A DNA stretch of 64,000 nucleotides from Pristionchus mayeri (lineage: Eukaryota > Nematoda > Chromadorea > Rhabditida > Neodiplogasteridae), in contig BTRK01000006.1 of the NCBI GenBank assembly GCA_036245805.1, forward strand, positions 23,654,365 to 23,718,364, given 5' to 3'. Numbering within the stretch: position 1 is the first letter of the stretch; every line of letters begins with the position of its first letter. The translations under genes and the position numbers were made by a program. Shown here one piece after another: positions 6,521 to 64,000 of this stretch. The notes beneath the pieces are model-generated. The model searched no databases. It was not told where the DNA came from and was given only the letters and a program-made list of their open reading frames with translations.

Positions 6521-9500
6521 TCAGGCGTGCGCGTGCTTCTTCGGTATCTCCGCGTACTCGTTGTCCTTCTCCTGTAATTAGAATGAAATCAATTGCATCA
6601 ACATTAGGTTAAGAAACAAGAAGCAATCAAAAACTGTGTACTGTCAAATGAAACGACGATTGCAACCTAATACTTAGAATTTTAAACAGTACAATTTGAT
6701 TATTCCCACTATTGGCACTATTCCCCCATCCTCCCTATCCCCTACCGTACCTTGAGTGCTGCTTTCCTCGCTTCGGCCATGGTGGCTGATGCTCGAGTGA
6801 CTGCATTGGTCATGTAGAAGTCGGCGAGAGTCGACTGAGAGGCAGTCACGTCAATGTCCACGGGAGAAGACGACTAAAAGGAACAGATGAGCTTGAGATA
6901 GTGAGTGGCCCGATCATAGCAATGTGACGTGGATTCAAATATATCCACTATCTTTATATCAGATAAACCGCGTACTCAAGATTCTTGGAAATATGAAAAA
7001 GTTGTGAGGTCGCAAATTCCTATTTTATGATTTCTTCTAAATTTCTTGAAAATACTTTCCTAGTTGAAATTTTTCAAATGTAAAGAACGCTTATAGAAAA
7101 TACGTAGAGCTCAATCCAGCAAACACTACTTGCTTAGGGTCGTTCGGTCGAGGGAGCATAGTTAACGGGATAAGAATGGCCTCGGCGCATTGCTCACCTT
7201 CTCAGCGACGGCAGCAGCAGTGCTCTCGAAGGCAGTCTCTTCCGCATCTCCGAATCGAACGAGATGAGGAGCGATCTGAAGGAAGGAATATGAGTATTTA
7301 CCAGAATATGTTATAGACTTGAAGCAACGACGTGCAAAAATCATTGTTTTCTACCAAAAAAAGAATCAAACAAAGTGAAATAAAAAGTGGGATTGCATAC
7401 CTCACTGAGTCTTCCACGGATCTCCTTGATGTCATCGTAGGGGAGGGATTTGCCTGCAATCACACACATTCAACATAATTTTGAAAGTAAATTGTAACAT
7501 TTAAAGCAAAATTTATTTTTTTTGATTAAATGAGTGAATCAAAAACATGAATACATAAAAGAGTAAAAGGGTAGTTAGCTATCCTGAATAGTCTCACTCA
7601 CCGGCGACTTCCGACAGTGCCCTGATGATCTTCCAGTCGGCACGAGCATCTCCAGGAGGAGCCACGGCAAGGTAACTAAACGAACCACTCAGCACATCAA
7701 GAACATTGTCATTATATCAAACGAGGCATTTGCTGATGAATTTGACACGTTAATCTTGCAAAAGTTTGATCATGTTGCGGCTCCTAAAGTTACTCCACAA
7801 AGAAACCGTCCCTAAACTCTTTCCGGACCTTCACTGGCCCAGCCAATATAATACTAGAAAGCATCTCCTTCCATCACCCCCCCCCCCTCGTACCCCTTCT
7901 GGGATCGTCCCTCAGTGTTGACATAGGAGGCGTCCTTCTCAGTGTAAGCTGCTCCAGGGAGAACGACGTCAGCCATCGAAGCACCCGCGTCTCCCTGATG
8001 ACCTGTACGAGACCATATCTTATTCAACCAACTTGTAGGAATAGATTAGGATTCCACATTCCCGCAGAAACATATAGGTGAGGTTCCAAAACAATTGAAC
8101 AAGAAGCTCCTTAATTGCTAACTAACTCAAACTGCCTTTGCTAAATCATCGTCCAAATTAAAAATTCTATTCCAGTTAATCGCAATCTCCACGTTATCCG
8201 TAGTGGTTGTACCGTGCCCCTCCCCCCTCTCCTCACCCTGGTAGACTACGAATGCATCGGGAGCCAGTTGTTGTCTGTTCACTGCTCCCTCGTCAGCCCC
8301 CAGAAGGTAGAGGAACTTGATGGGTCTCTTCCGAATGGCAGCAGTGCCAGGCTGGTATCCGAGGTCGAGAGCACCCGTCTAGAGAGGGCACTATCAGCAT
8401 CCACAATTCATGCACACAACCAGGAAAAGAAGGAACACATGCGTATCGGAAAAAATGTTTTGAGGTATCGCTGGTGGAATTGTAGCAGGATTCCAAAACC
8501 AATACCATCTAAATACCATGACAATCTCTCACCTGTGAGGCGAGTTTCTGGAGTACGTTGAGTACCTTCACGTCCTTGTCCGTCTGAAAACATATTCCTA
8601 TTGCTCACACTAATAAAAATCAGGAAAAATATAAATATATATTTTCCTAATGCGTAATCCGTACCTTTCCATTGGTCTTGATCTTCTCAGCCAGCTGTTG
8701 CAACTTCGCCAGCAGAGCAGCTCCCTTGTCGCCCTAAAAGAGTCCAATTACGGAAATTCACATATTCTCATCAATGGTGCCGTCAACCACTAACCTTGAG
8801 AGCAGCTGCTCCCACGAGAATCATCGGACGTTTGGCAGAGAGGAAACGCTGAAAGGAAAGATAGATAGGAAGAAACATTTGAATTAAGCAAATGGATAAA
8901 CAAGTTATATCCATTATAAACGCACAAGACCCGCACAGTCCCCTCCCTTCCCCTCCCACTTTGGCGAATTCTCCTTTGCCAGCTGCGACATCCTCGAGTG
9001 CCTTGGTGCTGGTTCCGAGATGCTCGTAATCGTAGGTCAGATCAGTCTTCCCTCCGATCACTCCCACCTCCACGTCCGAGTAGAGGTACCTCAACGGAGA
9101 CGATCTCAAACTGGATAGAACACGCACGACTACTGTTGAGGAGGATTTATTTTTCATCGAGCTAAAGTACACTACAGCTTCCATGAAACACATTATTCTG
9201 AGTGTAAGATGGAGAGTGACTCACGACTTCCTGATCCTTGCATTGAGTACGGGTGCCTCGTAGCGGGGGTTCGTTCCCACGAGGAGAAGGGCATCGCACG
9301 ACTCAACTGCAGCCAGACCATCGCCCATCGTGTAGTTCGATCTGAAGAGGGAATCGAGTAGACGGAATCATACGAGATTCCACTTTTTCACCAGTTTCAG
9401 TTGTTCTGTCAGATTCGTATTTGACAACATTTTTTTAAAAATCTTTTTTATATTTCCTCCTCAAAATAAAAATAAATAGGACGCAGTATTTGTAAGGGTC

Positions 9501-17813: not shown

Positions 17814-20800
17814 TCATCGAGAGAGGAATAGAGTTAGGAGTAAGAGAAGAGAAGGGATGAGAGAGAGGGGAATACTCGAGGAATGGTCCAATCGATCGAG
17901 TAAGAAGTCCACATTCGGATCCCCTCGCTTAGCTATCGCCACTGAACGGAGTGAACGACTTCTGCAAGAAAGGGATCAATTATCATTCCTTTCCTAACTA
18001 CAGTATACCTGGTGAGGGGAGTGTCCAGCTGAATGTAAGCTGATGGTGGGCCATCCTCCTCCTCGAGGTACGGTATCGATCCAAGATCCTTGAGGTACGG
18101 TAGGTCAAGGAGTGACCGTTTCCCTCTCGGTTTATTGTCGGAGCAAGAGACGGGCAGAACCTGAGAGATCAAAGATCAGAGGAGTCTCATGACTAGGCCA
18201 ACCTCTGCACTGACTCTCCATCCCGAATCTGTGACTGTGAACTCATAGCAATGAGACTTCTCGGCTTGTCCCGTGGCCTGGAAGAGATCAGAGATCACTC
18301 CCCTCCTCGATCCACTATCGTACCTTAGTATCGTAGTAATTCTCAGAACTGTGACTCTTCTTGTTCGATCGTTTCTTCTTCTTCTCAATGGATACTCGAC
18401 CATCGTATCCAATAAAGACCTAAAAGATCAAAGATCAGTTTGAGAATAAAGAGAGATACTCATAGATACCTCAATGGCGTCGTCGACTCTCGGGGACTGG
18501 AGATCGTGCATCTTATCGATTAGGTAGATCACAACTCCCGATTCCTCATCTACTGCCTCTCCTCTGGTCGATCTCTTGGGAAGGAAATGAACCTGGAAGG
18601 AGAATGATACTTTCATCAACTCATTCAATACAATTCCTACAGTTCGTAGTAACACATGCTTTGGGGAATTAGTTACAGTAATCAATCGATATTCTCACTC
18701 TTCCTCTAATCTTCTGCTCTCCAGGGAATGAGGGTGGCGCTGAGTGGGAGAGCAAGAGCGCTGTTGGTTTCCCAAGGAATGCAGGCCCTCTCGCTGACAT
18801 CACTACAGTGGACAGATCTGCAATGGACGATTATGATCTACCAATCGATATCCATCGACTACCGTACCCGTTGAGGACGAAGAGAATACGACTGCGCGCC
18901 ACGAGGGCATCGAGAACGTAGGTGGATTCTGAATGAAGTCATGGACAGTGACGTCATTTCATTCCTCTTCTCACCTCAATGGGATCTGCACTCTCATTCT
19001 GGAGGATATCCCGATGTTTCTCTAGTAAATCGTAGAGTACTCGATTCTTTGTCGCCATTCGACGGAGATCAAAGATCGGTTTCCAATCTTCCACCTGAGA
19101 GACGAGAGATTGAAGATCAAAGATCAATCTGCTCACTTCATCGTGTTCATCACTCCAAATGAGCAGAGACACTTGCTTGTCCATCCCCAACAACCAGAGA
19201 AGCTGCTCCTTCGAATTCGCTGCCTGGAATGAGGGAAGAATTGATCGAGGTACGAGATCCACTCTGAGATCGATTAAATTTGGGAATGGAGAGGGAGATA
19301 TCACGCCTCTCACGAGAGAATCGTGCAAGAATCGACATTTCAGGGAATGGAGCGAAAACCGTGAAATGAGTTCTATCCGGATTTGGGCATCCTGAGGCAT
19401 GTCTGACACTCCCCCAAAGTCTCATTGTGCAGACTTCATTTTGTAGCTGCCTACGCCGGGCACGATGTTGATAGCTCTCACTTTGAGCTCTTGTATCTCG
19501 GTAACAGTGAAAGATATAACACAATTGACCGCAGAGATACCCCCACTCATTTTTCGAGCTCTATCGACGTATATAGTTCATTTTGTCTGAATGTCAAATT
19601 TAACAGTGATACACAGTGGGTCAATTTTCCCAAAAGTGTAGGTAAAGAAGCAGACAATTTTTACATATGTTGTAGAGTTTTCCAAGAGCTATCGAATGAG
19701 TGGTTTGCGCAAAAAATAGCAGGGGTATAATTAGGGTTAAGGCTTTTTTAGTTTAGCTGATGATTTGAAGTCAATTCATTTCATTCCGAACCGCGTTCAG
19801 ACCGCTCATCTCGCCTGGTCAACCAAGAATGATCGTATTTCAATAACATTTTAAGAAAAAATAACTTCAAATCATCATAAAAACTAGAAAGGCCTTAACT
19901 CTAATTATACCCCTGCTATTTTTTGCACAAAACACTCATTCGATAGCAGTTGGAAAACTTTACAACATATGTAAAAATTGCCTGCTTCTTTACCTACAAT
20001 TTTGTGAAAATTGACCCACTGTGTATCACTGTTAAATTTGACATTAAGACAAAATGAAATATATACGTCGATAGAGCTCGAAAAATGAGTGGGGGTACCT
20101 CAGGCGTCAATTTTGTTATATCGTTCACCGTTACCGAGATACAAGAGCTCAAAGTGAGAGCTATCAACATCGTGCCCGGTGTAGGCAGCTCCAAAATGAA
20201 GACTGCACAATGAGACTTTGGGGGAGTGTCAGACATGCCTCAGGAGGCCCAAATCCGGTTAGAACTCATTTCACGGTTTTCGCTCCATTCCCTGATTCAG
20301 CTCGATTCTCTCGTGAGTAGCGTGATATACTCGAGCACTCCGAAGACTAGACTTGTTCTCTCAATTCGCAATGAAATGTTAATGACGTACGACAGTGAGT
20401 CGTACGGAGAGCATCACTGGCTGGTCGAGTCTCGCGACATACTCCAGGATGTGCATCAACTGACGCCACGAAATACTGCAATTTTTTTTCTTATTTACAG
20501 CATTTACAAACAACCATAATAATTCGAATGAGTACTCACCGTTTGTACTTGTCTTCGACCTGGGTGAAGTTGGCCTGTCTCGTCCATCCGAGGGAGAGAG
20601 TTGCATCGGGGAAGAGACTCTCCGTGTTTGACACGAAGGTAGATGGATCCACTGCTGACTGAAAGATCACGCTCAGATGGACTCTCAACATTCTCCTGTT
20701 CTTTTCCTGTTCTATTTGTGTGTCTCACTTCGATACTCTGGTAGCTTCTGAAGACGTCAGCGTGCAGGATGAGAGGGTAGTCGAGGACAGGCGACGTGGG

Positions 20801-32547: not shown

Positions 32548-34576
32548 ATGAGGGCCTCGTTCTTCGTTCTTCTGTTCCTTGGCTTCATTTCCATCGAAGG
32601 GAAAGTGACCTCCCAGATGAGATCATTCTCAGGTCAGTTCATAATACACCCAATTAAATTTTGAAAATGATTAGGATTATCTTATCTGAATGTTCTTCTT
32701 GTACTAATTATAAATAGTGCAGGCCCCCGTGGAGGACTTGGTTCTCCTTCCTTCCCCGATCAATACCCGAATGAGTTCCAGGATACTGCCATCATCCAGG
32801 TATCACTTTATCAAAATTTCACAACATTGCGTGATCAGATGACTCTCTATGGATTCACGACTCGTCTTTCAATCATTCCTTCTCAGTTGGGTTCTGGCTA
32901 CACCACCGACTACATCATCCACCTCGATTTCCTCGTTTTCCAACTCGAGAATTTGTACGACACCGTGGACATCTTCGATGGCAACTCCACTGATCCCGCA
33001 GACAACATCGCAAAGTGAGACATCACCCCATCCTTTAGCCTTTCCCTGCACTGTTATAATCCCGGACTATTGAATGATCCGGCTGATTAGAACTAATGGT
33101 CGTCGTTGTTTTGACGTCCCTCGTAAAGATTTCGCCCCCCTCCGCATGACTTTCCATGTGTGAATCGTGGTCCTGAGTGTGATGAGAGTGCGGGTGCTCA
33201 AAGTACAGTTCGAACAACATAAGGAAAGTGCAGGTTGACTGGAAACATGACTGGTCGAACGTATCAATCTGATGGGCCCGTTCTGACGATTCTCTTCAAG
33301 ACGGATCTCACTGGACAGAGGGATGGATTCTATGTCCGATGGACTGCAGTCAAGAGTGAGTACAGAAAGAAGATCCTCGAAAGGAGGGCATAAATTGCAG
33401 AGGGCGAGTCGTACTCTGCTCCCAAGACATGCGACAACCTGATCATCTCGGAGAACAGTAAGTTTTTTCATAATAAAATTCTTGAAAGCCGTTCGTCCTC
33501 CTCAATGATTCTTCTGCAGCTGGCTATGGTCTGATCTACTCTCCTGGATACGTGGGAAACTACCCCGATTCGATATCGTGCTCGTGGACACTCGAAGCTG
33601 GAGTGGCACAGAAGGTACACTGAAAGAAGAACTTACGAGTGAAATTATAAAATGCAGGTTCTCCTCATTTTCTATGCATACGAGACGGAGGATTGCTACG
33701 ACGTCCTCTCCTTCTATGATGGATCCATAATCAATGCCAACAAGAGATCCAAGTAAGAATAACCTAAATTTTATTTTAAAAAACTGCAAAAGAACGTAGG
33801 GGGCACCCGGAGTTGAACCGGGGACCTCTCGATCTGCAGTCGAATGCTCTGCCACTGAGCTATACCCCCGAGCGATGCTTTGAGAAAGGGCGGCTCATTT
33901 GTTGGTCAACAATGCCTGTCCTCTTTCGCTATCTCCTCGTGTCTCTTCTCTCCCGCCTGGTCAAAGCAAATAAGTGACAGTCTAATAGTTGGCGATTCTC
34001 TCTCGTGGTTTGCTCGCGGACGCCGTTTCCCATACGGGGGTATAGCTCAGTGGCAGAGCATTCGACTGCAGATCGAGAGGTCCCCGGTTCAACTCCGGGT
34101 GCCCCCTACGTTCTTTTGCTGATCTTGATTCTCAGGGGAATGTGCGGCGACATCGTCAATCCTACAACTGAAGCGGCGTTCGTGCTGTCCACGGGATCTA
34201 AGTTCTCACTCGTCAGTTTCCCTCGATCATTGGACCATTCACGGAATATTACGACTCGTTGTTCTCTATCAGTCGAGTAGACATTGAGTGGATTACACAA
34301 TCAGACAACAAGTCATCGATGTATGAGTGATAGAATGGAATTGTGAACTCTGTACCAATAACAGATTAACGATAGTCCAATAACGATAGTCTCTTCACTC
34401 ACTCCCTTCAGGTCTTCACTTCCGATATGACTAAGAACTACGCGGGATTCACAGCAGTCTTCCGCTACGTCTCTGCTTCGGAGACAATCAACGGCGACTT
34501 CAACAGAATGGACTGGACTCCTTCCAAGATCGATCGACACCCCAAGATGATCAAGCCCCCCAAGACCCCTCTCTAG
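32548..34576 (+). CDS. Secreted protein with two CUB domains
   Basis: Nine exons (32548-32632, 32723-32799, 32887-33014, 33234-33355, 33401-33457, 33520-33614, 33658-33752, 34136-34211, 34412-34576) encode 299 aa. It opens with a signal peptide (MRASFFVLLFLGFISIEG). CUB 1 (about residues 30-140) has the core YDTVDIFDGN and ends GFYVRWTAV, but contains no cysteines. CUB 2 (about 150-270) has the usual four (TCDNL, SCSW, DCYDVL, MCGD), the SPGYVGNYP entry motif and the closing GFTAVFRY. A basic, proline-containing tail follows. CUB domains are extracellular protein- or sugar-binding modules; ligand and role are unknown. Intron 7 contains two tRNA-Cys genes in opposite orientation. Confidence 0.93.
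33798..33869 (-). tRNA. tRNA-Cys (GCA anticodon)
   Basis: A 72-nt cloverleaf on the minus strand. The acceptor stem GGGGGTA/TGCCCCC is fully paired, the D arm is GCTC...GAGC, the anticodon stem-loop is TTCGA-CTGCAGA-TCGAG with anticodon GCA, and the T arm is CCCGGTTCAACTCCGGG. No intron. It sits in intron 7 of the CUB gene on the opposite strand and is identical to the second copy at 34036. Confidence 0.96.
34036..34107 (+). tRNA. tRNA-Cys (GCA anticodon), second copy in opposite orientation
   Basis: Identical in sequence to the minus-strand copy at 33798-33869, with the same complete cloverleaf and GCA anticodon. It points away from its partner. About 14 bp of 3' flank (TACGTTCTTTTGC) is also shared, so the two form an inverted duplication of gene plus 3' flank. 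It lies 28 bp upstream of CUB-gene exon 8. Confidence 0.96.
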
Positions 34577-41907: not shown

Positions 41908-43466
41908 TCATGAGGTGGTGAAATGAATGAGATTTGTGTTGAGATTTTTATGAAGCTCGAGAAAGAACGAAGTAGTGTCGAATGAAGGATTTGGGAGAGG
42001 AAGAGTAGGAGGAGGAAGGAAGGAGGAAGGGATCTGAGGGAGATACGAAAGGGAATTATGAACGATAGAGGGTGGAGGAATTTTAGATGATTGAGAATGA
42101 GAAGCAAGGAGTGCAGTAAGTTGAGAGAGAAGGGAGGAATCAATTGAACTGAGCAGAGAAAGGGAAGGAGTTACTGTAGGATAAGCAGTGATTGACTGGG
42201 TCATATCAACTGTTTGAGAGCTCTGGGGGATAGAACTGATTATGAAGGTGTTGTTGAGAAGTGGATAAGGCTTGGGTTGAAGAATGGAAGATATATCAGA
42301 GGGAGTGAGGACGGAAGAAGTGGAAATGCAAGAGGTAGGGAAAGAGGAATTTGCGGTAGTTGATACGGTAGAACAGGAAGGAATGGCAGGAACATAAGTT
42401 GGAAGAGAAGGGATAACGGTTGTAGGAGGGAGTACGGTAGAGAGATGATCTAGATTGCAGGAAGGGGAGGGAAGAGATGGGAGAAGAATTGGAGTGTCTT
42501 GAGAGATGGAAGGAGGAATGGAGAAGCGACGAGGACGTTTGATATCTGATGATGATGGAATAGAAGAAGAAGAGGAAGTTGAGGAATGATTGGAAGAAGG
42601 TTGAGAGGAGGAGAGGGGAGTGGTGGTAGATAATGTAGTTGATGAACGGATGGAAGGGGTTCGAGGGCGTTTGAATACAGAAGATGAAGAGGAAGACGAC
42701 GAGGGGGCAGTCGAGTGAAGAGGGGTGGAGGAGAGTGTTGAGGAAGTGGTAGGAGAGAGGGCCAGAAGGTTGGGTTCTCGAGGAAGAGAAGAAGATGAGA
42801 ATGTCGAAATGGAGGCAGGAAAAGTCCTTTGGCCCCTGGAAGAATCACTGCATCGTTAGCATTCTAGATTTTTATGAAAGAAAAGGAATGAGTCTCACTT
42901 GTGAGGGAATGGAATTCTGCACTTCTTAGTGGATACGAGATACTTCCCATTCCTTTCCACGATGACTCTCATTGGAGGAATTGTAGGGAGAACGACGAAA
43001 GTCCCTTTACACTCATCTTCTTCGTCTGAGATTGACGGAATCACCTACAATAACACCACATCTTTCTCTATAATGGGCCAATCAGGGAGTGGATGAGTCA
43101 TACTTGTATAAATAGCCACATGAATGCAACTTCATCAACTCAGAAGGGAGAAAATGTAGCCTTTGCGAGACATTGCTCGTTCCAACTGGTGTGCACCCAT
43201 TTTGAAAACTTGCCCTCTATCAGTCCCATTTATTTGAACGCGGAACTGAGGGAATACTGTAGCAAAAGACTTGTTGTTGTCTAGTGTGTGCTACAGATAA
43301 GATTGTGGCTTCTCACTGTTTTTCCGAAGGGAGAAAAGTTGAGGGGTGGTTCGGGATGAGGATTGAGACTTTTCGCCTTCTCTCTCTCCATCTTAGCATT
43401 CTTCATACGGATCTTCCATGCGTCATAGTCCTCGAATGGAGCCATTAGGAGAGAATTCGCACTCAT
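41908..43466 (-). CDS. Ser/Thr/Pro-rich protein of unknown function
   Basis: Three exons (43466-43317, 43044-42899, 42847-41908) encode 411 aa. The start codon directly follows a strong TTTCAG acceptor, so it is probably trans-spliced. The first exon gives a charged helix-like segment (FEDYDAWKIRMKNAKMEREK). The second has a short hydrophobic-basic region with VLPTIPPMRVIVERNGKYLV. The third is one long exon of 313 codons, strongly enriched in Ser, Thr, Pro and Leu, with two KRPR motifs that could be nuclear localisation signals. The long exon is easily missed because it has no early Met. It converges on the secreted Cys-rich gene 283 bp away. No family recognised. A possible extra exon near 43170-43310 was considered and left out. 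Confidence 0.72.
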
Positions 43467-44657
43467 CTGAAAGGAATGAGGAAGGGAAGAATTGAATAGA
43501 ATACGATTATCGAGAGAGACCAAACTACATTCAATACATTAAGTGCGATTCAATACGAAATATTAAGGGGGAGGGTTGATGAGTGATTCATTGGAATGGA
43601 GAGGAAGCGGGAAGAGAGAGCAGGAATTGAAGGGGGTTCAAGGTGATTAAGAGGGAAGAGAAGAGAGAAACAGTAGAGAGCAGAATCTAGAGATCACTCT
43701 CAGCTAACAGAGGGGGAGGGGAGATGGAGAGGGGGGGAGGGGGAGAGAGGGAGAGGGAGGAGAGGGGGGGGGACGAAGAGGGGCAGGGAGAGTGTGTAGT
43801 GTAGTCAACACGTGTGCAATGACGAAAGTGAGGAAGAGGAAATGAACCTCGTATGAATAGTTGAAGGAGTGGGAGAAAGAGGGGATGGGAGATGCAATAG
43901 GAGGCAGACTTCAAATGCTGATAGTTACTCATTGCAAGATGGGAGATAATGAGGATGATTATAAAAAGCAATGGTGGAGTGAAGAGATAATGATTAGGAT
44001 GAGTAAGAAGAAGGAGGGGAAGGAGAGTGGGTGCAACCGCACTGGGAATGAGATCTCTTGCAGGGAAAAGAGAGAGTGGGGGAAGGGGAAGGTGTTGATC
44101 TTTCTGTTGAGAGGGAGAGACAGAGAATGGAGTGAGAGAGTGAAGAGTGGACAGATCAACATACTGCAGTTAGATGTAAATGACCTACTAGGAAAGCTGC
44201 AAGAGGAGCATACAGTGAGGGGGGAAGGCATGGAATTCGTGTAGTGATTCGATATTGGGAGTAAGCAGGGTAACAATGAAGATGACGGTTGTGAGAAAGA
44301 CACAAAATAATAAAACGAAGAGAATGGAGGGAGAAGATAACATTCTCACTTGCCCATTCCGAGTATGCAGAGTTTGCCGATTTGCAGAGAGAGCAGAGGC
44401 GGAGGGGGGAAGGTTGGTGTGGTTGCACGGAGATCATTCGTGGAGAGCAGATAAGAAGAGGAAGAGAGGGAAGGAGTGGAGGAGGTTTAATGATTGCTTA
44501 ATACGACGACTATTATCGAGGAGATCAAAATTTACACGTGAATCCCTTCCCCGATCAGATTGAGATCACCCAGTTGTTTATTGTTGTTCCAGTTTGTTTA
44601 TCCCACATTTGGAAGTACAAGAACGTTGATGGGATTTGAAACTCGGTTCATGATGTA
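43467..44657. other. Purine-rich intergenic region
   Basis: 1.2 kb of strongly GA-biased sequence, including a run of G and GA repeats at about 43710-43790. Long open frames occur on both strands at once (plus 43861-44244, minus 44303-43959), which is expected from composition. No supported gene. Confidence 0.5.
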
Positions 44658-52647: not shown

Positions 52648-55600
52648 ATGAAGGAGAGTGTTGGCAGGTCGCCAGAGCTGATTGTGATGGACCGATTGAA
52701 TGTCCGGCTTCTAGAGACGCATCAAGAGGTTCGAGTTAATAATTAATTATTCATTCGACGAGATTCTCCTCAGGTAACTCTCTCACGTGACGCCCCACAC
52801 GCGGATGCGGGAGTATTCATCTTCCCCGACCGCGTGGTCGCGGATGCGTCTCCCGTTACGCTTCGTCTCGCTGAAGAGGGGAGGAGCGGTCAGTTTCCTC
52901 TGTCTATTATTCAGTGGTTCTCTGTACGTAAATGGCTTTCAATTTTGTAAAGATGACTTGAGTTGAAACGCACTCTACTCCTTCTCAGGCGTAAATCTTC
53001 TGCCAGTGATCAACATCTACGAGGGGAAAGAAGAGGAAGAAGATTCGGTACTTAAAGCTGTATTCGCTGCCCCTTCCAATAGTGGAATCCACGAGGAGAA
53101 ATGCACCTGCAGAGCATGCCAAGTGAGCAATTCTACTTCATTTTAATATAACATAATCACTGCATTCTGAATGGTGCGATTGCACGTTCCTTGACGTTCT
53201 TTGGTGCAATTCGATCAACTTTGTTTGTGCTCGATGAAATACTACCGGAAGAGAGGGGAAGGGCACCTCGAGTTATTGAGATAAAAAGACACAAGTGTCG
53301 AGGGTAGAGAAAGAAACAGTTATCGATGGGAACTCATCTTTCTCCCCTCTTCAATTAGAAGAAGGGCGTAATACTTCCCATCACTCTTGCCGATCAAACA
53401 ATTGCATGATAGGAAAGGTCAATCACTCTTCTTCGTAGATCTCTGCTGGCACCCTTCCGGCGTCAACGATGGAGCAAGGCGCGTCTCGTGTGCCACGTCC
53501 ACTCACTATCGCCGATATGGACGTGCGAGATATGGATGAGGATAGGTGAGAGTTGACGCGCCTCGAGTGTCGTTGATGAAATTCCAATGGCAGAAGAGAC
53601 CACTTCCTCTCCCCTAGTGATGCCCCTTCTGAACCAACGACTCCCAATGCAAATCGATCGAGGAGACCCAGTGAAAAATTGGTTAGACTCAGTTTCATTT
53701 CTATTATTTTCTGAAATTAAATCATTGTTACAAAAAGAGTCAACGAATGTTTGCAGGACTACGGAATCGATTGGATCGAAGCATTCAAGATGGTCTCTCC
53801 TCGTCAGAGGAATAGTACTCTCGCAGATGAGGTCAGTGATGGAAAGGAAGGGTGGTGGGGGAATTCATCGAATGGAGAGAATCGATGAGCAGATTCAGAT
53901 GCAATTGCACGAAAAATAAGAAAATAACACGAGTGTGTTTCCTTGTTCCACAATCTCTACTGGTAATCTCTTCTCTCGATCATTTCCATTCCTCCGAGAT
54001 GGAAACCTCTCTCTCTGCTTCATTGCCTTCGAGAGTTCACTCACCTGATCGGTTCTTTCGTACGTGAAAACTCTCGTTCTCTCTCTCTTTCGTGAAAGGG
54101 AAAGTGAGGAATGCTCGATCATTAACTGCTTCCTCTCAGTGTCAGTCACGGTAATCTCCCTGTCCGAATTCATTTGTCAATCCACTTCATCCTTCTTTTT
54201 CTCTTCGATTTCTCGCACTTCCTCCGTCTGTCTCTCTATCTAATCCAATTGACTGGACACGAGAGTGAAAGTGTGCTCTGATTGGCAACTGGGAAGACAG
54301 ACCTCTGCTAATTCCAGATCGACGGTCGTCTTTCTGCCATGGAACACGAGGAGAAACAGAAGGAACTAATGGCAGAAACACTCAACAAGATCGACCAAGT
54401 CTCCAAGGGAAACAAAACCGACCAGAAACGGTACGTAGCTTTATTTTTACAATTGATCTCGAAGAAATCTTCTAAACAGTCGATAAATCTCTCTTCAGTC
54501 CCGATTCCTTCTTCGATTCCTCGATCACTCTGAAGGACATCTTCGGACAGAGCGCCAAATCAGATGACGTCGTCTTCAATACATCCATCAGGTGCAAATC
54601 GTAGTCATCTCCTCCAGATGATATCCTTCGATTCCATATTCTCCCAATAAAATTGAATAGGAAAATTCAAAAACATTATAATTTGAGTCTGGACGACGTG
54701 TTCGCTGGGATGAAAAGGACTCCTTCTCAAGAGAAGAATCGATCGAGTGCAGATAGATACTACTACCATGAGGATGAAGAAGATGAAGTGAGGAGAGAAG
54801 GAGAGAGGAAGGAAAGAGTGTCTCTCCCTTGCAGGAGATCCTCCCCCCTGAGGTGGCAGCCCTCTACTCCTCCCATCCCTCTTCCCTCCCTCAGTCTTCC
54901 TCTGTCAACATCGACGACGTCTTCGCTGCTCTCGATCGAAAGAATCGAATCTCTTCCCCTCGTCAGAATCTCGACGATTTCTACGCTGATCCTCCCTCAG
55001 AGGTCACCCACTCAAACACCCTTGGGGACATGCTTGCTTCCGTTTAGCTATTCCATTATCTCGCTTGCATTTGTGTGCTGGGTACGCCTGTTGTTGCCAT
55101 ATCGGATGAGTGATAAAGGATGTTCAGGTCTTTTCTGATTCGGCAGTCTCAATTCGACAACTGACTGAAAGCAAAGCGACGGATCGAGAAAGGGGAGAAG
55201 AGGAGGAAGGAAATGAGACGAGGTGACCACTCCCTCGCTACTATCGACACTTCCCTTTTATTACGGTGAGAGGAAGAGAAGATGTTGATTGCAGATCTTC
55301 CAGTTCGGGAGTTTCGCACGGGGAGTCAACACCCAGAGAAGAGGAGACGGATTGGTTGAGGAGTCTCGTGGAGAAGAGGAGATCGCAAGAGATCAATCTG
55401 CCACGAGAAGGACGATAGTGAGCATGCACACATTTGTTATCGTACATTCAATCAAGGTGTATTTTAAGTAACAATATTCCAAAGAATGAGCGTGAAGCGA
55501 GATGCGTGTTGAATATTTTACGTGTTGCAGTATGGAGGATAGTGATAACGGGCCGAGTCCCCCCTTGGATCCTTCTAAACTCTTCCCTGCAGAAACCATC

Positions 55601-58600
55601 GAGCAGACACGCAAGGTATTATTTACGAAAAATTCCTGTTTAAACAATATTTTTAAACATTCATTTTACGAAAATCAAAATAAGTGAGTGATTGTCTTCG
55701 GCAGGAGTCATATCTGCACGTGGGAGAGCTATTCTCTGGCCATTCTTCTTCCCCTCGGGAGAAACCCATCGAGGAAGAAAGGGAGAGAGTGGATCTGGAA
55801 TGGATCAATCGATTGGCTGATACAAGCACAGAGGAGATCCTCGATGCAGTCTTCTCGTGTTCAGCAGTGGGAGGAGAGAAGGGCAAGAAGTGCAACTGCC
55901 AGGCATGCGACCCCGCCAAGTGAGAACAATCCCATTCACATTTGAGAGGATTAGCCAGACAGACAAAACAATTCGTAGCCGGAAAAACAATAGTCTGCAT
56001 GTTCACAATGAATTCTGAACATAGCAGTTATTTTCAATTGTGCCGTATATCAATAATTTCTTATTCAGGAGTATCTACCTTGAGAGAGAAGCTGCGACTG
56101 CTTCCGAAGAGAGAAAACGGAGTCTGCACTTAGTGAACCCAGTAGATATCACTTTGGAGGAGGTATTCGAAGGGAAGAAAAGAGATAGACAAGAAATCAC
56201 CAGAAGAGAAGGAGAGGAGAACACTGTGGTGAGTATGAAATCATTTCATAATTATAATTACAAGCGTTGAGTTGTTCTGGGCATACATTGGAAACAACGA
56301 AAAATGCTTGAAAATGTATCATTGATGGTGGCAGTATTCTCATTCCAGCCTGCCCTCCCTCCAGTGAATATTGATCTGGAAGAGGTCTTCTCCCCTCCCG
56401 TCCATTCTCCTTCCTCGAGGGGAATCGACAGTGAGAAGTGGAAACCGAGGACGATTGTGAAGGAGGTGAACAGTCTTTTTAAACTCTACAATATTATGAG
56501 AATCATGTGAATATGAAATCATTAGTAAATTCTATTTGCGAAATAAGTGAGTTCTCGTTCACCTCTTCCACTATTTGTGTAGTGTGAGCAGCAAAGTTGT
56601 AACTTCACGATATATTAGGTCAAACAGCCCGTGATTCCTCAATCAAGGAAGAGAAGCATCGACCACGAGAAACCACTCGCGCCCAGTGAAATCGACCTGA
56701 AAGAGGTACCGAGAATTCTGTTGCAATACTTCTTTCCATGAACTACTCTTGTGAAGAATTGACGTGAAAAAATGATCCTATAGGATAGATGTAATTGGAC
56801 ATAAAATACGAAGAGGGTATCACACTTCATAATGAGCACATAATTGAGGTTTTCGAGGGCAAGGGAGATCCTTCTTCGTCCTCTCTCCACTCCACTCCCA
56901 TCAGCAACGTCGACTTGGACCTCGTATTCGCACCTTCTTCATCCTCTTCATCTACAGCGAATTCAAGAGTGAATCTGGACAAGTTCAAACCCCGATCACT
57001 GGAGAGAGAACACAAACAGTCGTCCATTCCTCCTCCTCCCTCCCGTCCTGTGGTGGATGCAGATCCAGTTGATATGGAGGCAGTATTCAGTCCATCGAAG
57101 ATGAAGAAGGAAGAGAGTTCAATCGTCTCTTCTTCGACCTTCCCCGTACTATTGAGAGAAGAGGAGGTTCCCATCACTGATTCATCCATTCCTGTGATCA
57201 TCGCAGAAGGAATTGTCTCCGAAGCCATGGATGAGGCCCTTAGAAGTCCGAAACTTGAGAAGACCGAAGAGAAAGGAATGATCTCCATTTCTTCCTTCCC
57301 TGTCTTCCTAGTGGATAAGAAGACCGAAACTCTTTCAACGGATGCTGTTAAGTTCGGATTGAATTCAAGATCAGCCTCTCCCGAACCAACGAGCGTAGAT
57401 ATAGACCAAATCTTCAGTGGAGTTTCTACGGAACACAAGCCAAGGATCGACCTCTCCAAATACGAGCAGAGAACTCTCGAGAGAAAGAAACAACCCAGTC
57501 CCAGACCAGTGATTATCTCCAACTCATCTGTGCCTGTGATTGTGATTGACCCTCTCGATATGGATCAAGTCTTCAATCCATCGACCAGCCGAGTGAATGA
57601 AGATATATTCACTACTTCAATCACTTCTTCATCCGTGCCAGTCATCATCGCGGAAGAGATCGTTTCTGGAGCAATGGACGGTGTACTGAAGAGCCATGAA
57701 GTGGAGAAGATCGAAGAGCATGGAATGATCTCTCATTCGACCCTCCCTGTATTCCTCGTGGACGAGTCAGAATCCCTATCTCCAAATCGAGAAGAGATCA
57801 GATTCGGTCTGACCTCGAAATCTTCTTCCCCCGAGCAGTCGACCATCGATCTCGACCACGTCTTCAGTGGAGTTTCTACGGAACACAAGCCAAAGATCGA
57901 CCTCTCCAAATACGAGCAGAGAACTCTCGAGAGAAAGAAACAACCCAGTCCGAAACCTGTGATTATCTCCAATTCGTCGGTGCCTGTGATAGTGACTGAC
58001 CCTCTCGATATGGATCAAGTCTTCAATCCATCGACTAGCCATGTCAAACAGGGGCCGACTACAATATCAAATTCTTCAGTGCCGGTCATCATCGCAGAAG
58101 GAATAATTTCTGAGGCCATGGATGAGGCCCTTAGGAGTCCGAAACTGGAGAAGATCGAAGAGAAAGGAATGATCTCCACTTCTTCCTTCCCCGTCTTCCT
58201 AGGGGATAAGAAGGCAGATACTCTTTCAACTGATGCTGTTACGTTCGGATTGAGTTCAAGATCAGCCTCTCCCGAACCAACGAGCGTAGATATAGACCAA
58301 ATCTTCAGTGGAGTTTCTACGGAACACAAGCCAAGGAACGACCTCTCCAAATACGAGCAGAGAACTCTCGAGAGAAAGAAACAACCCAGTCCAAGACCAG
58401 TGATTATCTCCAATTCGTCTGTGCCTGTGATAGTGACTGATCCAGTTGACATGGACTTGGTCTTCAATCCCTCTCCCTCTCTCAACGAAGATGCCGCCCC
58501 TTCAATCGTAGCCGAGGAAGTTGTCCATGATGCTCTCAAGGAAGCACTGAGAAGTGAGAAGTTGGAGAAGTCAGAGATCGACTTAGACCAAGTGTTCTCA

Positions 58601-61600
58601 TCGTCTTCTCCTTCCTCTTCTCCTCGAGTCGATCTATCCAAGTTCGAATCTCGTACTCTCGAGAGACGAAGAGATACTCCTCGACCAGTTATGTCCACTC
58701 CTTCTCCTCGTTCTGTCGTTATCCCCGATTCCCTCGATATGAACCTCGTCTTCTCCCATGGAAAGAATGAGATTATGGAAGAGGAAGGTCCTCTGACGTC
58801 TCCTCGTTCATCTCCTCAACAATCCCATTCCCTCCCTCTCGACATCGTCTCTTCTTCCATCGCAGATGCCATTGTGGCAGAAGCCATGGACGAGGCCCTT
58901 CGCAGTCCTTCCCTCAATGAATCTTCCTCCTCCACTTTCGCCTTCCCCTTCTCAACCGAGGAGAGAACGGGCAGTTTTGCTGCTATCGACTCTGCTTCTT
59001 CCCTCGATACTCCCACTGAACACGTCGTCTATCCACGGACCATCACACACGTTCGATCCTCTGCCCCTGAATTCGTCCCTCGTGATGATCTCATCAACGA
59101 GGCAGTGATGAAGACAGTGGAAGAAGAGGAGGAGGAGGAAAAGGAGGATGGAGAGACTCCCCTTCCAGTCTTCGCCCGATCTCGCAATCCTGCCTATGGA
59201 ATGGCAAGTGATCGACCTCGTGTGACACAGAGTGAAGATGCGCCTTCCCATATCTCCGATCCCATCTCAGTGGTCACTGATATCTCCCCTTCTCCTTCCA
59301 TCAAGAAGATCATCTCTCCATCTCCAGCCAGTGAGAGAATCCCTGAGTCGTCGATCAATCTGGACGAAGTCTTCACTTCTCACATCTCTCCCTCCTCTTC
59401 GACTACTTCCCGTGTCGATCTGGACAAGTTCGTGGCGCGGACTCTCGAACGACAGGCTCGTCCTCGTTCGTCCGCCCCTCCGCCTGAGAAGCATGAGACG
59501 ACGACACGTCACTCTTTCCTCCCTCCCTCCTCCATTTCCGTTGACGACATCTTCACCCCCCAACCCTCTGTCTCTGAATATCCTCCTCGGCAGGAATCGG
59601 AGTCAACTGGGACGGATCCAATGGACGATCCTGCAGCTGAGGTTGATCTCGACTCAGTCTTCGCAGCTTCATTCGGATCGGAAGGAAAGGGATCGAGGAT
59701 GATTCCCCGTAGTGTGGATAGAACACTCACTGCTGAGTTCAACGAGAGGAAGGAGGCAGCACTCTCCACCCTCTCCACTCTTCCCTCCTCTGATCTCGGT
59801 GATCTCACTCCCGCTCCCCTTCCTCCTCCAAGGCGGTCACCGCGTCCATCCGCCTCCGACGCGCCACTCGATGAAACACCATCGCGTCCTCCACGTCAGA
59901 AACTCGTCTCCTCTTCCTCATTTCCCATCCTCATAGCCAATAGTCCTGCAGTGGATGAAACTCCCTCTCCTCCTCCTCGTAATCGTCGTCCATCCCCCAT
60001 CCCTCCTGGAATAGTCCTCATCGATGAAGATGCTAATCCCGTGACTCCTCCTCCCTCACTCGTCACTACTCCCACTCCTCCTTCTCGATCCCATCGGAGG
60101 ACTGATTCTGTCTCTCTCCCTCGATCTCGCACTGCCTCCTCCAGCAAGGTCTCCGAATCGATCACGGAGGAAGAGAAGTCTTCCCTCACAGTCGATGCTT
60201 TCTTCGCAGCAACTGCAGCAGATGCAGCTCGTCCCTCAGTGACGATAACGGAGAGAGGAGACGAGGCCACAGTGGACATCCTTCTGCCTCCCCCTCGATA
60301 TCCCCCTCGCATGAATTTCCCCCCACCACCACCCGAAGAGGAGATTGATGGGGAGAAGGAAGCGATCACTTCGACGACTGTAGAGGAAGATGTCAAGGTA
60401 ATCAATGCAACTGCCAGTATGGAAAAAGAGCAATAATCTGATTGCAGGAAGCTCGTTTGATGGCGTCTCCCTCCCTGCCCCCTCTTTCCGTCATCACTGC
60501 TCCTGTAGAGATAGACATGGACGCTGTCTTCGAGAGGAAGATCCTCACTCCCAGCAGGTGAGAGCCCCCCCCCCCCCCTAGATGAATCCCTTCTGATCTC
60601 TCTCAGATTCGACACTGATCGATGGCAGCCTCGGACACTCGAAAGGGAGAAGAAGAGAATGGTGGAGGAAGTGATCGAGAAGAGACCGAAGAGTGACCTC
60701 CCTCAATCCACTGTCGACATCGATGAGATATTCAGTGGACGGTACCATTCATTTCCTATATTTTCAATACACCAACAATTGCTTGTCAGGTAACTTGGCA
60801 ACCAAATATTTCGTATCCCTTTAGGTTGACAACGACGGATGTGGAATACGTGACTAGCCCTCCTCGATTGACTCTGAAAAAGGCAGAGGAAGAGAAAGAG
60901 AAGTGGGAGGAGGATCTGAGCAAGGAAATCGATGAATATGAGAGAAGAAGAAATAGACTGGGACAGGAGACAGAGGGATCACTCAGGTAGACGATAGAAG
61001 GGAGTGAATTGAATTGAAGTGATTGCAGATCGACAATCTCTCGTGCCTCTTCCATCCCCTTCTCTTCGACTCCTGAAGGAACGTGGAGGAGGAATGAGAG
61101 TGTAGAACCAATTGTGGCCCTTCTCGAGAAGGAGAAGAAGAGGAAGGAATCGAGTGCCAGTGAGAGAAGTGGGAAGAGTGCAAAGAGGAAAGGAAGCAGA
61201 GGCAGTTGGAAGGTATAGCTTGCATTTGGATCTCAGGTTTTTCGCATTTGATGTTGTGCAGCAATGCGTCAAATAATCGAGTGATTTAGAATCCCATTAG
61301 ATGCAATATCCTTTTGTGTACGAGTGATACCTATTCTTCTGCAGGTGGAACATCTGCTGGAGCCTCAGTCAGACGGACTAGTCGAGATAACTCAAGAGCC
61401 AGAAGAGAGTGGAGCACAAGCAGAGATGAGAGAAGCGAAGAGGAATGGGAAGGTGTGGAGAGTAGACAGAGTACAGGTAAGGGATACCATCAGTAAAGAT
61501 ATCATTATAAATATGGCAGAAGACAGCATCTGCTTCAATCGAAGATTCAGATGATGAGAAGGGAGTGAGAATAAAGGTAGAACATCTCTCCTTTTGTGCA

Positions 61601-64000
61601 TACTTCCAACGTATTTACTCTCAGGTCCATTCGATTCCTCCTCCTCTTTCCGTCTCAATGGATTCCATCGATGATATCGAGAAGAGCATCGATGATGCTT
61701 TCGAAGAGGCACTCTCGCCAAGGGGAAGAAACATCGAGGTATCCAGAACATCGCTCTTCTTTCAGTGCACATTATTAAAGATTATCTTGCCCAAAGACCC
61801 ACGAGATCTCCTCTTCAGATCCGTCGCATTCCTTCTTCCTCTGTGGTTCGAGCTGAAGTCCATCGACACGATGAATCAGAGACTTATCCCCATCCAGAAT
61901 ATTCCTCTGAGACTCTCGAGGTACGCGAATGAGTAGATACATTGAAGCATATTCTACCATTCATTGAACGAAATTGGCTCTGAACTTATTATTGGAGGGA
62001 AGGGAGGGCGTCTATCGTTCCGTAACCAGTCTCCCATCAACCAGCGACACTACTAAGGTGAATATTTTGGGCTGTAACTTACTTCGTGAATATTATAAAA
62101 ATTGTGAGCATTTTTTATATGAATTCTTAATATTGTACTCTTATTACTGACAATACTCATACTTGTGAGGATGAAAGTAGAGAATGCATTTGAGGTCGTC
62201 TTCCCCCTCACTTCCCATGTGGAGGAACAACGATTCGTGACTTCAGCCAGTATCAGATTGGAGAAGAGTCTTCCCACTCCTGAGACTACTATGGAAAGGC
62301 ACACTGGAGTAGGGAACTTCTCCGAAAGAATGTACAATGAGTGACTCGTTCAGATGAGAAGAGAGTATGAATCGAGTGTCGATCCGTCCCTCCACTGGAT
62401 TCCCTCTTCGATTCCAGTGGAGAGAGTGACGATGAGGAAGAGATCTCGATCTGAAGGACCACTCGGATTACTCGAAGATGTGATGATGAGGGAAGAACAG
62501 GGTGAGCACGCACTGAATCAGAGCAATCAAATACAGTATTCGGAATGCATTGATCGATTTGAACTGAAAGATTTTTTAAAAGGATAAATGCATGTTTAGA
62601 ATTGTGTGATACTCGCAACTACCGCATGAGCTGGCATCCTTCCTCGGTACGAACTGATCTGGAAGACAGAGGATATCGAGGACACGAGGAGAGAATTAAC
62701 GGTGAGGATGAGCAACTTATGAAGTCATCGAACGGATGCTCTCAGGATCACTGACGACGACAGTTCGAGTAGCTGGATATTCATCGCCCAAGAGTGGAAG
62801 AAGCAGAGAAGGAAGAGAAAGGAGGAAGAAGGTAGAGAAGGAAGTGAATGGGGAATGCATCTTCATTCAACTGATGCGATATTACGGCAAAGTGACCGGC
62901 CCTAGTTCTTTTCAACAGATTGACTCACAATATATTCAAATGAAGGAACAAAGAAAGAAAATGTATTGTAGATCATTCGCAAGTCTAGAAATTCGATGTC
63001 ATCGTCGACTTCGAATGGGGAATCGACGTCGACGAGACCAGACGAGGAGGAAATGCTTGAGGTTGTTCAGAAATGGACAACTAATGAAGAACAACAATTT
63101 TCTTTAGGTGGAAGTGACGAAAAGACACATCATCTTGCGAGGTTCCTACAATCTCGTCGTTTCCAAGGTTTGTAATCGAAATTTTCCTTTGTGAAAGCAT
63201 AATCGTACCTCATTTTAATTATAAGAATGTATAAATATTAGCATTCTTGATTTTTGAGAGGTGTGAATTGCAGGAGGAACCCCTGGGTGTTCTCCTTCTT
63301 TCTCTCTCCGATGGTCAGCCAATCGTCCCCGCTGCTCTCGATTTCTCAGTCCTTCCCAAGCTGAAGAGACTCCTGAGGGAATGCATGACAAGAAGAGCGA
63401 GGAGGTTAGAATACATTTGAGCATGAAAGTGTAATCACGCATTCATGACCAATCGAACGGGTGAACAATTGAACGAAATAAGTGGATGAAATATCATACA
63501 TCTTAATTTTTTAATCGGGAACATAATGTATAATGTGTTGTTCGCTATGCATCTCTTTGTATTTTACCCAATCAGAATACTCGTGCCCCCCTTCATCTCC
63601 CCTTGCAGTGTGAGTATCCTCTCATCTCGTGGTGCATCTCTCCTCGAGATCTCCGATCCTGCCAACGAGAATATCAAGACTGTCTCTTCCGATCTCTTCC
63701 ATCCCATCAACAATCCAAGAGTGAGATCCACGTTTCAAACTTTTGATCCAAGTATAAATGTATAACAGGGGAAGGTGAATCTGTGCACTGCTGAGAATCG
63801 AGTTTGCGAGAAGGAAATGAGCAAGAAATTAGAGGTGAGCTCACTCTCAGCAAAATAGTTCATTTAGTGTAATTTAAAAACTTTATGGAAGGTTTCAATC
63901 TCTATATGGAAAGGTTGATACGAAAATAAACATATTATAGGAGATTCGTTTCCATCCCGACTCCCATCGATGGATGCTTCGATATACTGGACCAGGAGGA
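52648..64000 (+). CDS. Giant repetitive, largely disordered protein (C-terminus beyond window)
   Basis: At least 37 exons join in frame from ATG 52648 to the window edge, giving about 2,500 residues so far. Exon 18 alone (56849-60397) has 1,183 codons. The chain carries about 20 copies of [IV]-[DN]-[LIM]-[DE]-x-[VI]-F (VDIDQIFSG, IDLDHVFSG, ITLEEVFEG, VEIDMDAVF). Many are followed by a basic-charged [ID]L[SD]K[FY]xxRTLER motif (seven copies). Two cysteine motifs, CTCRAC (about 53101) and CNCQAC (about 55892), end related segments with AVF. Proline-rich PPPR clusters lie at 59810-60110 and K/E-rich coiled-coil-like stretches at 60840-61200. The C-terminal visible part (63111 onward) looks globular: HIILRGSYNLVVSK, then GVLLLSLSDGQPIVPAALDF. 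Composition is Ser/Pro/Glu-rich. No family recognised; a scaffold or adhesion-plaque role is speculation. Confidence 0.82.
57190..58500 (+). repeat. Tandem coding repeat, three units of about 445 bp
   Basis: The same 80-90-bp core (beginning AGTGGAGTTTCTACGGAACA) recurs at about 57416, 57866 and 58310 with only a few differences. The flanking blocks, encoding VPVIIAEG/EI, SSFPVFL-type strings and DPLDMDQVFNPS, recur with the same spacing. Each unit encodes about 148 residues. High nucleotide identity, including at silent sites, points to recent duplication or gene conversion within exon 18. Confidence 0.92.

Follow-up and report, generated by a model that had tools for sequence, protein, structure and literature searches.

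Composite A–RTLER–B repeats in a predicted giant protein of Pristionchus mayeri, probably joined to an ACC-synthase-like enzyme

The window analyzed here is a stretch of 64,000 nt from the nematode Pristionchus mayeri (assembly GCA_036245805.1, contig BTRK01000006.1, positions 23,654,365 to 23,718,364 of the forward strand). Its last part, from 52648 to 64000 on the plus strand, is occupied by one gene, which runs past the window end and encodes a giant protein with recurrent short motifs. The exons have been hand-assembled from the three-frame translation and then checked with a script. The resulting model comprises 37 exons and 36 GT–AG introns with compatible phases, and yields a single spliced frame of 2,515 codons with no stops, from the ATG at 52648 to the window end; this start codon is the model's own, provisional placement. 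The window protein is a 100% match to a partial P. mayeri record, PMAYCL1PPCAC_28940 (P0001, 1,495 aa), and is 68% identical to a partial record of P. entomophagus, PENTCL1PPCAC_1942 (P0002, 1,831 aa). These were the only matches at E 1e-3 among 7,971 scored candidates, in a search with query words taken from residues 600–2515 that admitted proteins 0.55–1.75 times the query length.

P0001 matches 1,351 model residues (within 1161–2515), the sole difference being four residues absent from it at the exon 28 acceptor, and therefore this acceptor has probably been placed 12 bases too early in the model. P0001 extends 144 residues past the window, and P0002 ends 230 residues past the same point, so that, by analogy with P0002, the whole P. 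mayeri protein is estimated to be near 2,890 residues. The alignment with P0002 begins at model residue 1067.

The strict heptad [IV]D[LIM][DE]x[VI]F occurs 11 times in the model, compared to a mean of 0.002 and a maximum of 1 in 1,000 composition shuffles, and the relaxed form [ILVM]x[LIMV][DENK]x[VIF][FY] 22 times (mean 0.15, maximum 2 in 1,000 shuffles). RTLER is present in six copies and RSLER in one, while RTIVK at residue 619 is an eighth, degenerate copy. The recurrence of both motifs, on which the original prediction was built, is thus real, far above chance and contained in one open 37-exon frame, and several of its details have to be adjusted. The figure of about 20 heptads applies to the relaxed form and not to the pattern as it had been written. 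Relaxed motifs extend over residues 239–1915 and reach nine exons (8, 9, 10, 15, 16, 17, 18, 19 and 20, one motif being split between exons 17 and 18), instead of at least eleven. A six-frame scan of all 64 kb found 12 strict heptads, 11 of them in the exons of this gene. The remaining one, IDLEEIF at 54452–54472, lies in an open stretch of intron 7 and is probably there by chance; it was considered as a hidden exon and rejected, being inside the intron and not needed.

Moreover, the two motifs are not independent elements that alternate, as had been supposed, but parts of one composite repeat of approximately 70 residues, present in eight copies. In each module an A motif (ψDψDxVF) is followed by an R element (RTLER) and a B motif (DψDxVF) at near-constant spacing, with 24–28 residues from A start to R start and 25–32 from R start to B start. 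All eight A sites fit [VI]-[DN]-[LIM]-[DE]-x-[VI]-F, and five of the eight B sites fit [LV]-D-M-[DEN]-x-V-F, four of these being preceded by D-P. The R element reads [VI][DN]L[SD]K[FY]xxR[ST]LER in five copies and NDLSKYEQRTLER in one, with the variants IDSEKWKPRTIVK in module 1 and FDTDRWQPRTLER in module 8. Leave-one-out profiles recover all eight P. mayeri modules, at 41.5–104.9 bits; as these profiles still held recent tandem sisters and P. entomophagus orthologues, this is a recovery and not an independent test.

All modules lie on the plus strand. Module 1 (IDLEEVF, RTIVK, IDLKEVF) is located at 56355–56860, with A and R in exon 16 and B split by intron 17 between exons 17 and 18; it scores 41.5 bits with the profile that excludes it. 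Module 2 (VDLDLVF, RSLER, VDMEAVF) follows at 56891–57100 (65.7 bits). Modules 3 (VDIDQIF, RTLER, LDMDQVF; 57377–57586, 104.9 bits), 4 (IDLDHVF, RTLER, LDMDQVF; 57827–58036, 100.6 bits) and 5 (VDIDQIF, RTLER, VDMDLVF; 58268–58474, 99.3 bits) are carried by a recent tandem array at 57197–58440, detected by Tandem Repeats Finder as 2.8 units of 450 bp. Module 6 (IDLDQVF, RTLER, LDMNLVF) is found at 58559–58765 (84.1 bits). Module 7 (INLDEVF, RTLER, ISVDDIF; 59339–59563, 61.4 bits) and module 8 (IDMDAVF, RTLER, VDIDEIF; 60496–60828 in exons 19–21, 75.4 bits) both have orthologous modules in P0002. Isolated A-type motifs precede the modules at 54499–56228, namely ITLKDIF in exon 8, LSLDDVF in exon 9, VNIDDVF in exon 10 and ITLEEVF in exon 15; they fit the relaxed pattern and match the profile weakly.

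Exons 1–17 are supported by the open frame, by codon usage, with the model frame scoring highest in 15 of the 17, and by the A-type motifs in exons 8, 9, 10, 15 and 16 and module 1. The joining of exons 16–18 is in turn supported by module 1, since it spans all three of them. The N-terminal part also contains two C-x-C-x-x-C elements, compared to none in 1,000 shuffles. The first, CTCRAC at 53102–53119 (plus strand, exon 3), starts 13 residues past the Phe of an AVF motif variant (LKAVF...KCTCRAC), and the second, CNCQAC at 55891–55908 (plus strand, exon 14), 13 residues past the Phe of an AVF motif (LDAVF...KCNCQAC). They may perhaps represent a repeated metal-binding or redox element.

The three parts of the module are conserved more strongly than the sequence between them. 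Among six divergent modules (two of the three recent tandem copies being excluded from the eight), the pairwise identity is 0.68 in A, 0.50 in R and 0.40 in B vs. 0.22 in linkers, and gaps are confined to linkers. In the comparison of P. mayeri with P. entomophagus over residues 1067–2283, identical positions constitute 56 of 70 in heptads (0.80), 44 of 51 in R elements (0.86) and 739 of 1,096 elsewhere (0.67), and the relaxed pattern is retained in nine of ten comparable heptads, the tenth being IDMDAVF vs. IDTDEVF. The ratio of nonsynonymous to synonymous substitution rates (dN/dS) between the three tandem units, averaged across the whole unit and not over motifs alone, is 0.18, 0.22 and 0.25, which argues for selection at the protein level after the tandem duplication.

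The sequence carrying the motifs is rich in Ser, Pro and Glu. None of the three pieces making up the window protein had a Pfam match above the curated cut-off, the best sub-threshold one being Peptidase_M19 (21 bits vs. a cut-off of 26). AlphaFold, applied to one module with an alignment to five other window modules (a thin alignment of six sequences), yields no fold, with a mean predicted local distance difference test score (pLDDT) of 69 and a predicted TM-score (pTM) of 0.16. The only helices are at residues 9–14 and 61–64, lying within the A and B motifs or ending one residue past them. A six-module profile had four matches among solved structures, none of them significant (an antibody light chain, E 0.26; a calcium sensor, 2m97, E 1.2; a dynein light chain, E 1.7; another light chain, E 1.8). 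Exon 18 had no matches to solved structures at all, and the last 227 residues of the window protein no significant ones, with an ACC synthase as the best (E 0.073). Hence the earlier statement that the motif pair belongs to no known family stands in the libraries searched, and the profile search has not placed it in any structural repeat of known fold. The repeats are predicted to be linear motifs with a local helical tendency in fold-less sequence. With motif copies above chance and no predicted fold, the region resembles multivalent linear-motif scaffolds, as had been proposed. Here, however, the original prediction needs to be extended: the protein is not a scaffold only, as both database models continue into an ACC-synthase-like enzyme dependent on pyridoxal phosphate (PLP).

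The scaffold is followed by a junction block (residues 2289–2436; 62626–63404, plus strand, exons 30–34) with no Pfam match. It is 91% identical to P. entomophagus (135 of 148 residues) and is the best conserved among the parts compared; the corresponding counts are 843 of 1,174 for the scaffold, 64 of 79 for the enzyme inside the window and 123 of 144 for the enzyme beyond it. Exon 35 opens in phase at the enzyme N-terminus, and its segment [IM]LSSRG matches the start of a partial P. entomophagus record, P0004 (MLSARG), and of five aligned fungal relatives (MLSSR). The methionine, an ancestral-looking start of the enzyme, is retained in P. entomophagus and replaced by Ile in P. mayeri.

The start of the enzyme unit occupies 63609–64000 (plus strand, exons 35–37) and includes an AEN segment with the glutamate equivalent to Glu47 of apple ACC synthase (ACS). 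The aminotransferase class I/II domain PF00155 is identified at residues 1417–1787 of P0002 (E 2e-40), and in P0001 for its N-terminal half only (E 3.2e-13). The six best solved-structure relatives of P0002 are all ACC synthases (E 3.5e-33 to 5.2e-28). The fold comparison, made on the paralogue P0004 in place of the giant's own enzyme unit, agrees with this, as the top 14 Foldseek matches of its AlphaFold model (pTM 0.78) are all ACC synthases. Equivalents of apple Glu47, Thr121, Asn202, Asp230, Ser270, Lys273 and Arg407 are retained in P0002. Lys273, the Schiff-base lysine, is also retained in P0004 and in P0005, a partial record of P. fissidentatus; in P. mayeri its position lies past both the window and P0001. 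Opposite Tyr85 the pairwise alignment has Ser, and a Tyr is found a few residues before it; Glu47 and Tyr85 are presumably active-site residues of ACS. On these sequence features the unit is called an ACS-fold PLP enzyme and is not named ACC synthase.

The search for orthologues succeeded in the second Pristionchus species, P. entomophagus, and gave no match in Caenorhabditis in the protein searches made, whose sensitivity was limited, scoring being confined to the candidates with the most words in common; such scoring does not establish absence from Caenorhabditis or P. pacificus. With the P0002 enzyme region as the query and candidates of approximately 1,000–3,200 residues, three matches were obtained among 7,972 scored, these being the two Pristionchus giants and P0003, a weak match (E 8e-6) and the only one beyond the giants in this long-protein search. 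A 606-residue query gave 27 matches among 7,992 scored, including two partial Pristionchus records at 57% identity, 17 from Penicillium or Aspergillus and one from Fibrobacter. No animals besides Pristionchus are named among these 27, and animal homologues possibly fell below the candidate ranking. Identity between the enzyme unit of the P. entomophagus giant and P0004, from the same species, is 57%. Between the two giants it reaches 84% in a comparison of 200 enzyme residues, and the enzyme duplication therefore appears to predate the split of P. mayeri and P. entomophagus. In the literature, queries with Pristionchus giant protein or linear motif, ACC synthase and locus names returned nothing on this protein among the matches listed. 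Nor did the matches listed include a paper on such a nematode ACC synthase protein, judged by title or abstract start, or anything with visible bearing on the RTLER motif, and no paper was found on ACS-like activity in animals.

Taken together, these data lead us to propose a protein of approximately 2,900 residues comprising an N-terminal scaffold of about 2,290 residues, predicted to be disordered, a junction block of about 150 and a C-terminal ACS-fold PLP enzyme. The scaffold would carry eight putative docking modules plus isolated A motifs, each module consisting of a helix-forming A (ψDψDxVF), a spacer, [DN]L[SD]K[FY]xxRTLER, a second spacer and B (DψDxVF). A and B could form short amphipathic helices fitting into a groove on a folded partner, and RTLER could touch this partner, or the one next to it, at a second site. 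Through avidity the scaffold tail would then hold the enzyme on a repetitive partner or raise its concentration there. The proposal starts from the observed motifs, their spacing and conservation and from the predicted lack of fold, and from these we infer binding, a partner, avidity, recruitment and enzyme activity; as a whole statement, we regard it as evenly balanced between true and false. A bolder version is offered only tentatively: in a Pristionchus lineage a duplicated ACS-fold enzyme would have become joined to a giant scaffold, and A–RTLER–B would be a novel docking code in two parts, read by an undescribed partner and serving delivery or clustering of the enzyme on a repetitive structure through avidity. 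It is suggested by the facts that no Pfam family matched the scaffold and that the long-protein search outside Pristionchus gave only P0003.

Several points weigh against the anchoring proposal, and we consider them here along with the alternatives. Three of the eight modules are recent duplicates, and thus there are fewer independent module copies than the count implies. The circular-shift test of motif conservation between species is supportive but modest, the observed value being reached by 96 of 1,216 shifts for heptads and by 39 of 1,216 for R. Both points, as well as the Ser/Pro/Glu-rich composition, would be expected if the region were a spacer or entropic tail, in which the repeats are mostly low-complexity duplications with no docking role and the motifs are simply the only non-degenerate residues. 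We find this unlikely in view of the contrast between motifs and linkers in the divergent modules, with gaps in linkers only, the low dN/dS of the tandem units and the presence of isolated A motifs outside the tandem array. The charge–hydropathy index of exon 18 (+0.03) does not by itself give a disorder call. A further alternative is a folded repeat, for example a degenerate EF-hand-like helix–loop–helix: the calcium sensor 2m97 ranks second among the four structure matches, and its aligned stretch EDVDEIFGDSDTDKNGRIDFDEF is EF-hand-like, in a matching register. The match is not significant, however, the loop length varies through indels, the canonical ligand positions are not conserved, and AlphaFold shows two isolated helices, none at RTLER, with no overall fold. 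On the profile match and the AlphaFold module the EF-hand has been rejected, and a folded repeat of any such type appears very improbable.

Residues 1–1066 (exons 1–17 plus the beginning of exon 18) are in no database model found. The attachment of the enzyme is open to a different objection, in that the junction could be a merger of two adjacent genes, a scaffold gene ending at exon 34 and a separate, perhaps operonic, ACS-like gene starting in or before exon 35, in which case the motif scaffold would be real but not attached to the enzyme. If intron 34 is left unspliced, the frame gains five codons (RLEYI) and then a stop, and an in-frame ATG later in this intron could start a separate enzyme gene. 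The methionine retained in P. entomophagus and the apparently standalone paralogues (partial records) point in the same direction, and earlier annotation of P. pacificus is documented to contain genes fused artificially (PMC7992802). On the other side, models of two species, P0001 and P0002, cross the junction. Judging by the record names, both come from the PPCAC pipeline, which combines open reading frames from assembled RNA-seq of mixed stages with aligned curated proteins of P. pacificus (PMC7992802), its models drawing on one source or the other. The pipeline was applied, along with transcriptome data, to the chromosome-scale assemblies of these species (PMC11544036). P0001 begins inside the near-identical tandem repeats and P0002 at the matching element; these start points fit an RNA-seq origin, as short-read assembly would be expected to break at repeats. 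Moreover, the splice phase is retained, intron 34 contains none of the seven poly(A)-signal variants tested, P. mayeri no longer has the start methionine, and no other part compared is as well conserved as the junction block. We consider the fusion of scaffold and enzyme well supported but not proven, given sequence and automated, evidence-based models, and the merger of two genes correspondingly doubtful. Another alternative is that the motifs bind to the PLP dimer or the junction block of the same protein, leading to self-polymerisation or condensation in place of recruiting another partner. ACS-fold enzymes are dimers, no other role has been assigned to the conserved junction block, and the database models place scaffold and enzyme on one chain; on the other hand, paralogues without a tail apparently stand alone (again in partial records), and such homotypic assembly seems to us quite improbable. 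Finally, Tyr233 and Arg281, which we take to be PLP contacts, correspond to Leu and Lys in P0002, so the activity of the enzyme is uncertain; the Leu is also found in P0001, P0004 and P0005, and Arg281 is retained in P0004 and P0005.

If both the fusion and the docking are true, P. mayeri has an enzyme borne by a multivalent scaffold some 2,300 residues long, in which a two-part repeat is conserved, and in this analysis the arrangement was seen in one nematode genus only. It would be a tractable case of scaffolds gaining docking codes by tandem duplication, would provide a defined peptide for finding the partner, and would raise the question of what an ACS-like enzyme does in an animal. CRISPR tools have been used in P. 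mayeri (PMC11544036).

Elsewhere in the window, two tRNA-Cys (GCA) genes with identical Rfam scores lie in inverted orientation at 33798–33869 (minus strand) and 34036–34107 (plus strand). Pieces of a molybdopterin oxidoreductase-like gene (8786–9220, minus strand; PF00384, E 1.5e-7) and of a Menorin-like gene (18957–19421, minus strand; PF10223, E 4.4e-5, slightly below the curated cut-off) were also observed. GC skew is extreme (0.50) in the region 42001–44000, where tandem repeats rich in G occur near 43.7 kb, and a Ser/Pro/Thr-rich open frame of 315 aa at 41908–42855 (minus strand) has no Pfam match at E 0.01.

Among known systems, the closest to the enzyme unit are P0004 (P. entomophagus, 427 aa) and P0005 (P. 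fissidentatus, 344 aa), which are 56–57% identical to the P0002 enzyme unit and differ from the giant in that their records, both partial, lack the scaffold and the junction block and retain Arg281. Plant ACC synthases (1iax, 1b8g, 1m4n, 7dlw) are the best solved relatives (E 3.5e-33), also by fold for P0004, and share with P0002 the equivalents of Glu47, Asn202, Asp230, Lys273 and Arg407, whereas the identity is 22–24% and the giant has the two replacements, at Tyr233 and Arg281, and a giant N-terminal extension. The next-best named relatives are PLP transferases of Eurotiales (P0006–P0010 and P0012–P0023) at 23–26% identity; the MLSSR start is shared by the five aligned, and all are single-domain records of 370–439 aa. 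Their distance is much the same as that of plant ACS, so that a transfer from fungi cannot be claimed.

For the scaffold, a similar design is observed in FAM21 of the WASH complex. In both proteins one end presumably belongs to a functional assembly. The FAM21 motif LFa, L-F-[DE]-rich-L-F, is different from the motifs described here, FAM21 has no RTLER element, A–R–B spacing or PLP enzyme, and no sequence relation is claimed. The likeness lies in the reiteration of a short motif along a long tail: that of FAM21 has 21 LFa motifs for binding VPS35/VPS29, and their affinities for this one folded partner vary (PMC4110399). The Pristionchus protein is not a member of the FAM21 family, and FAM21 is its closest citable analogue.

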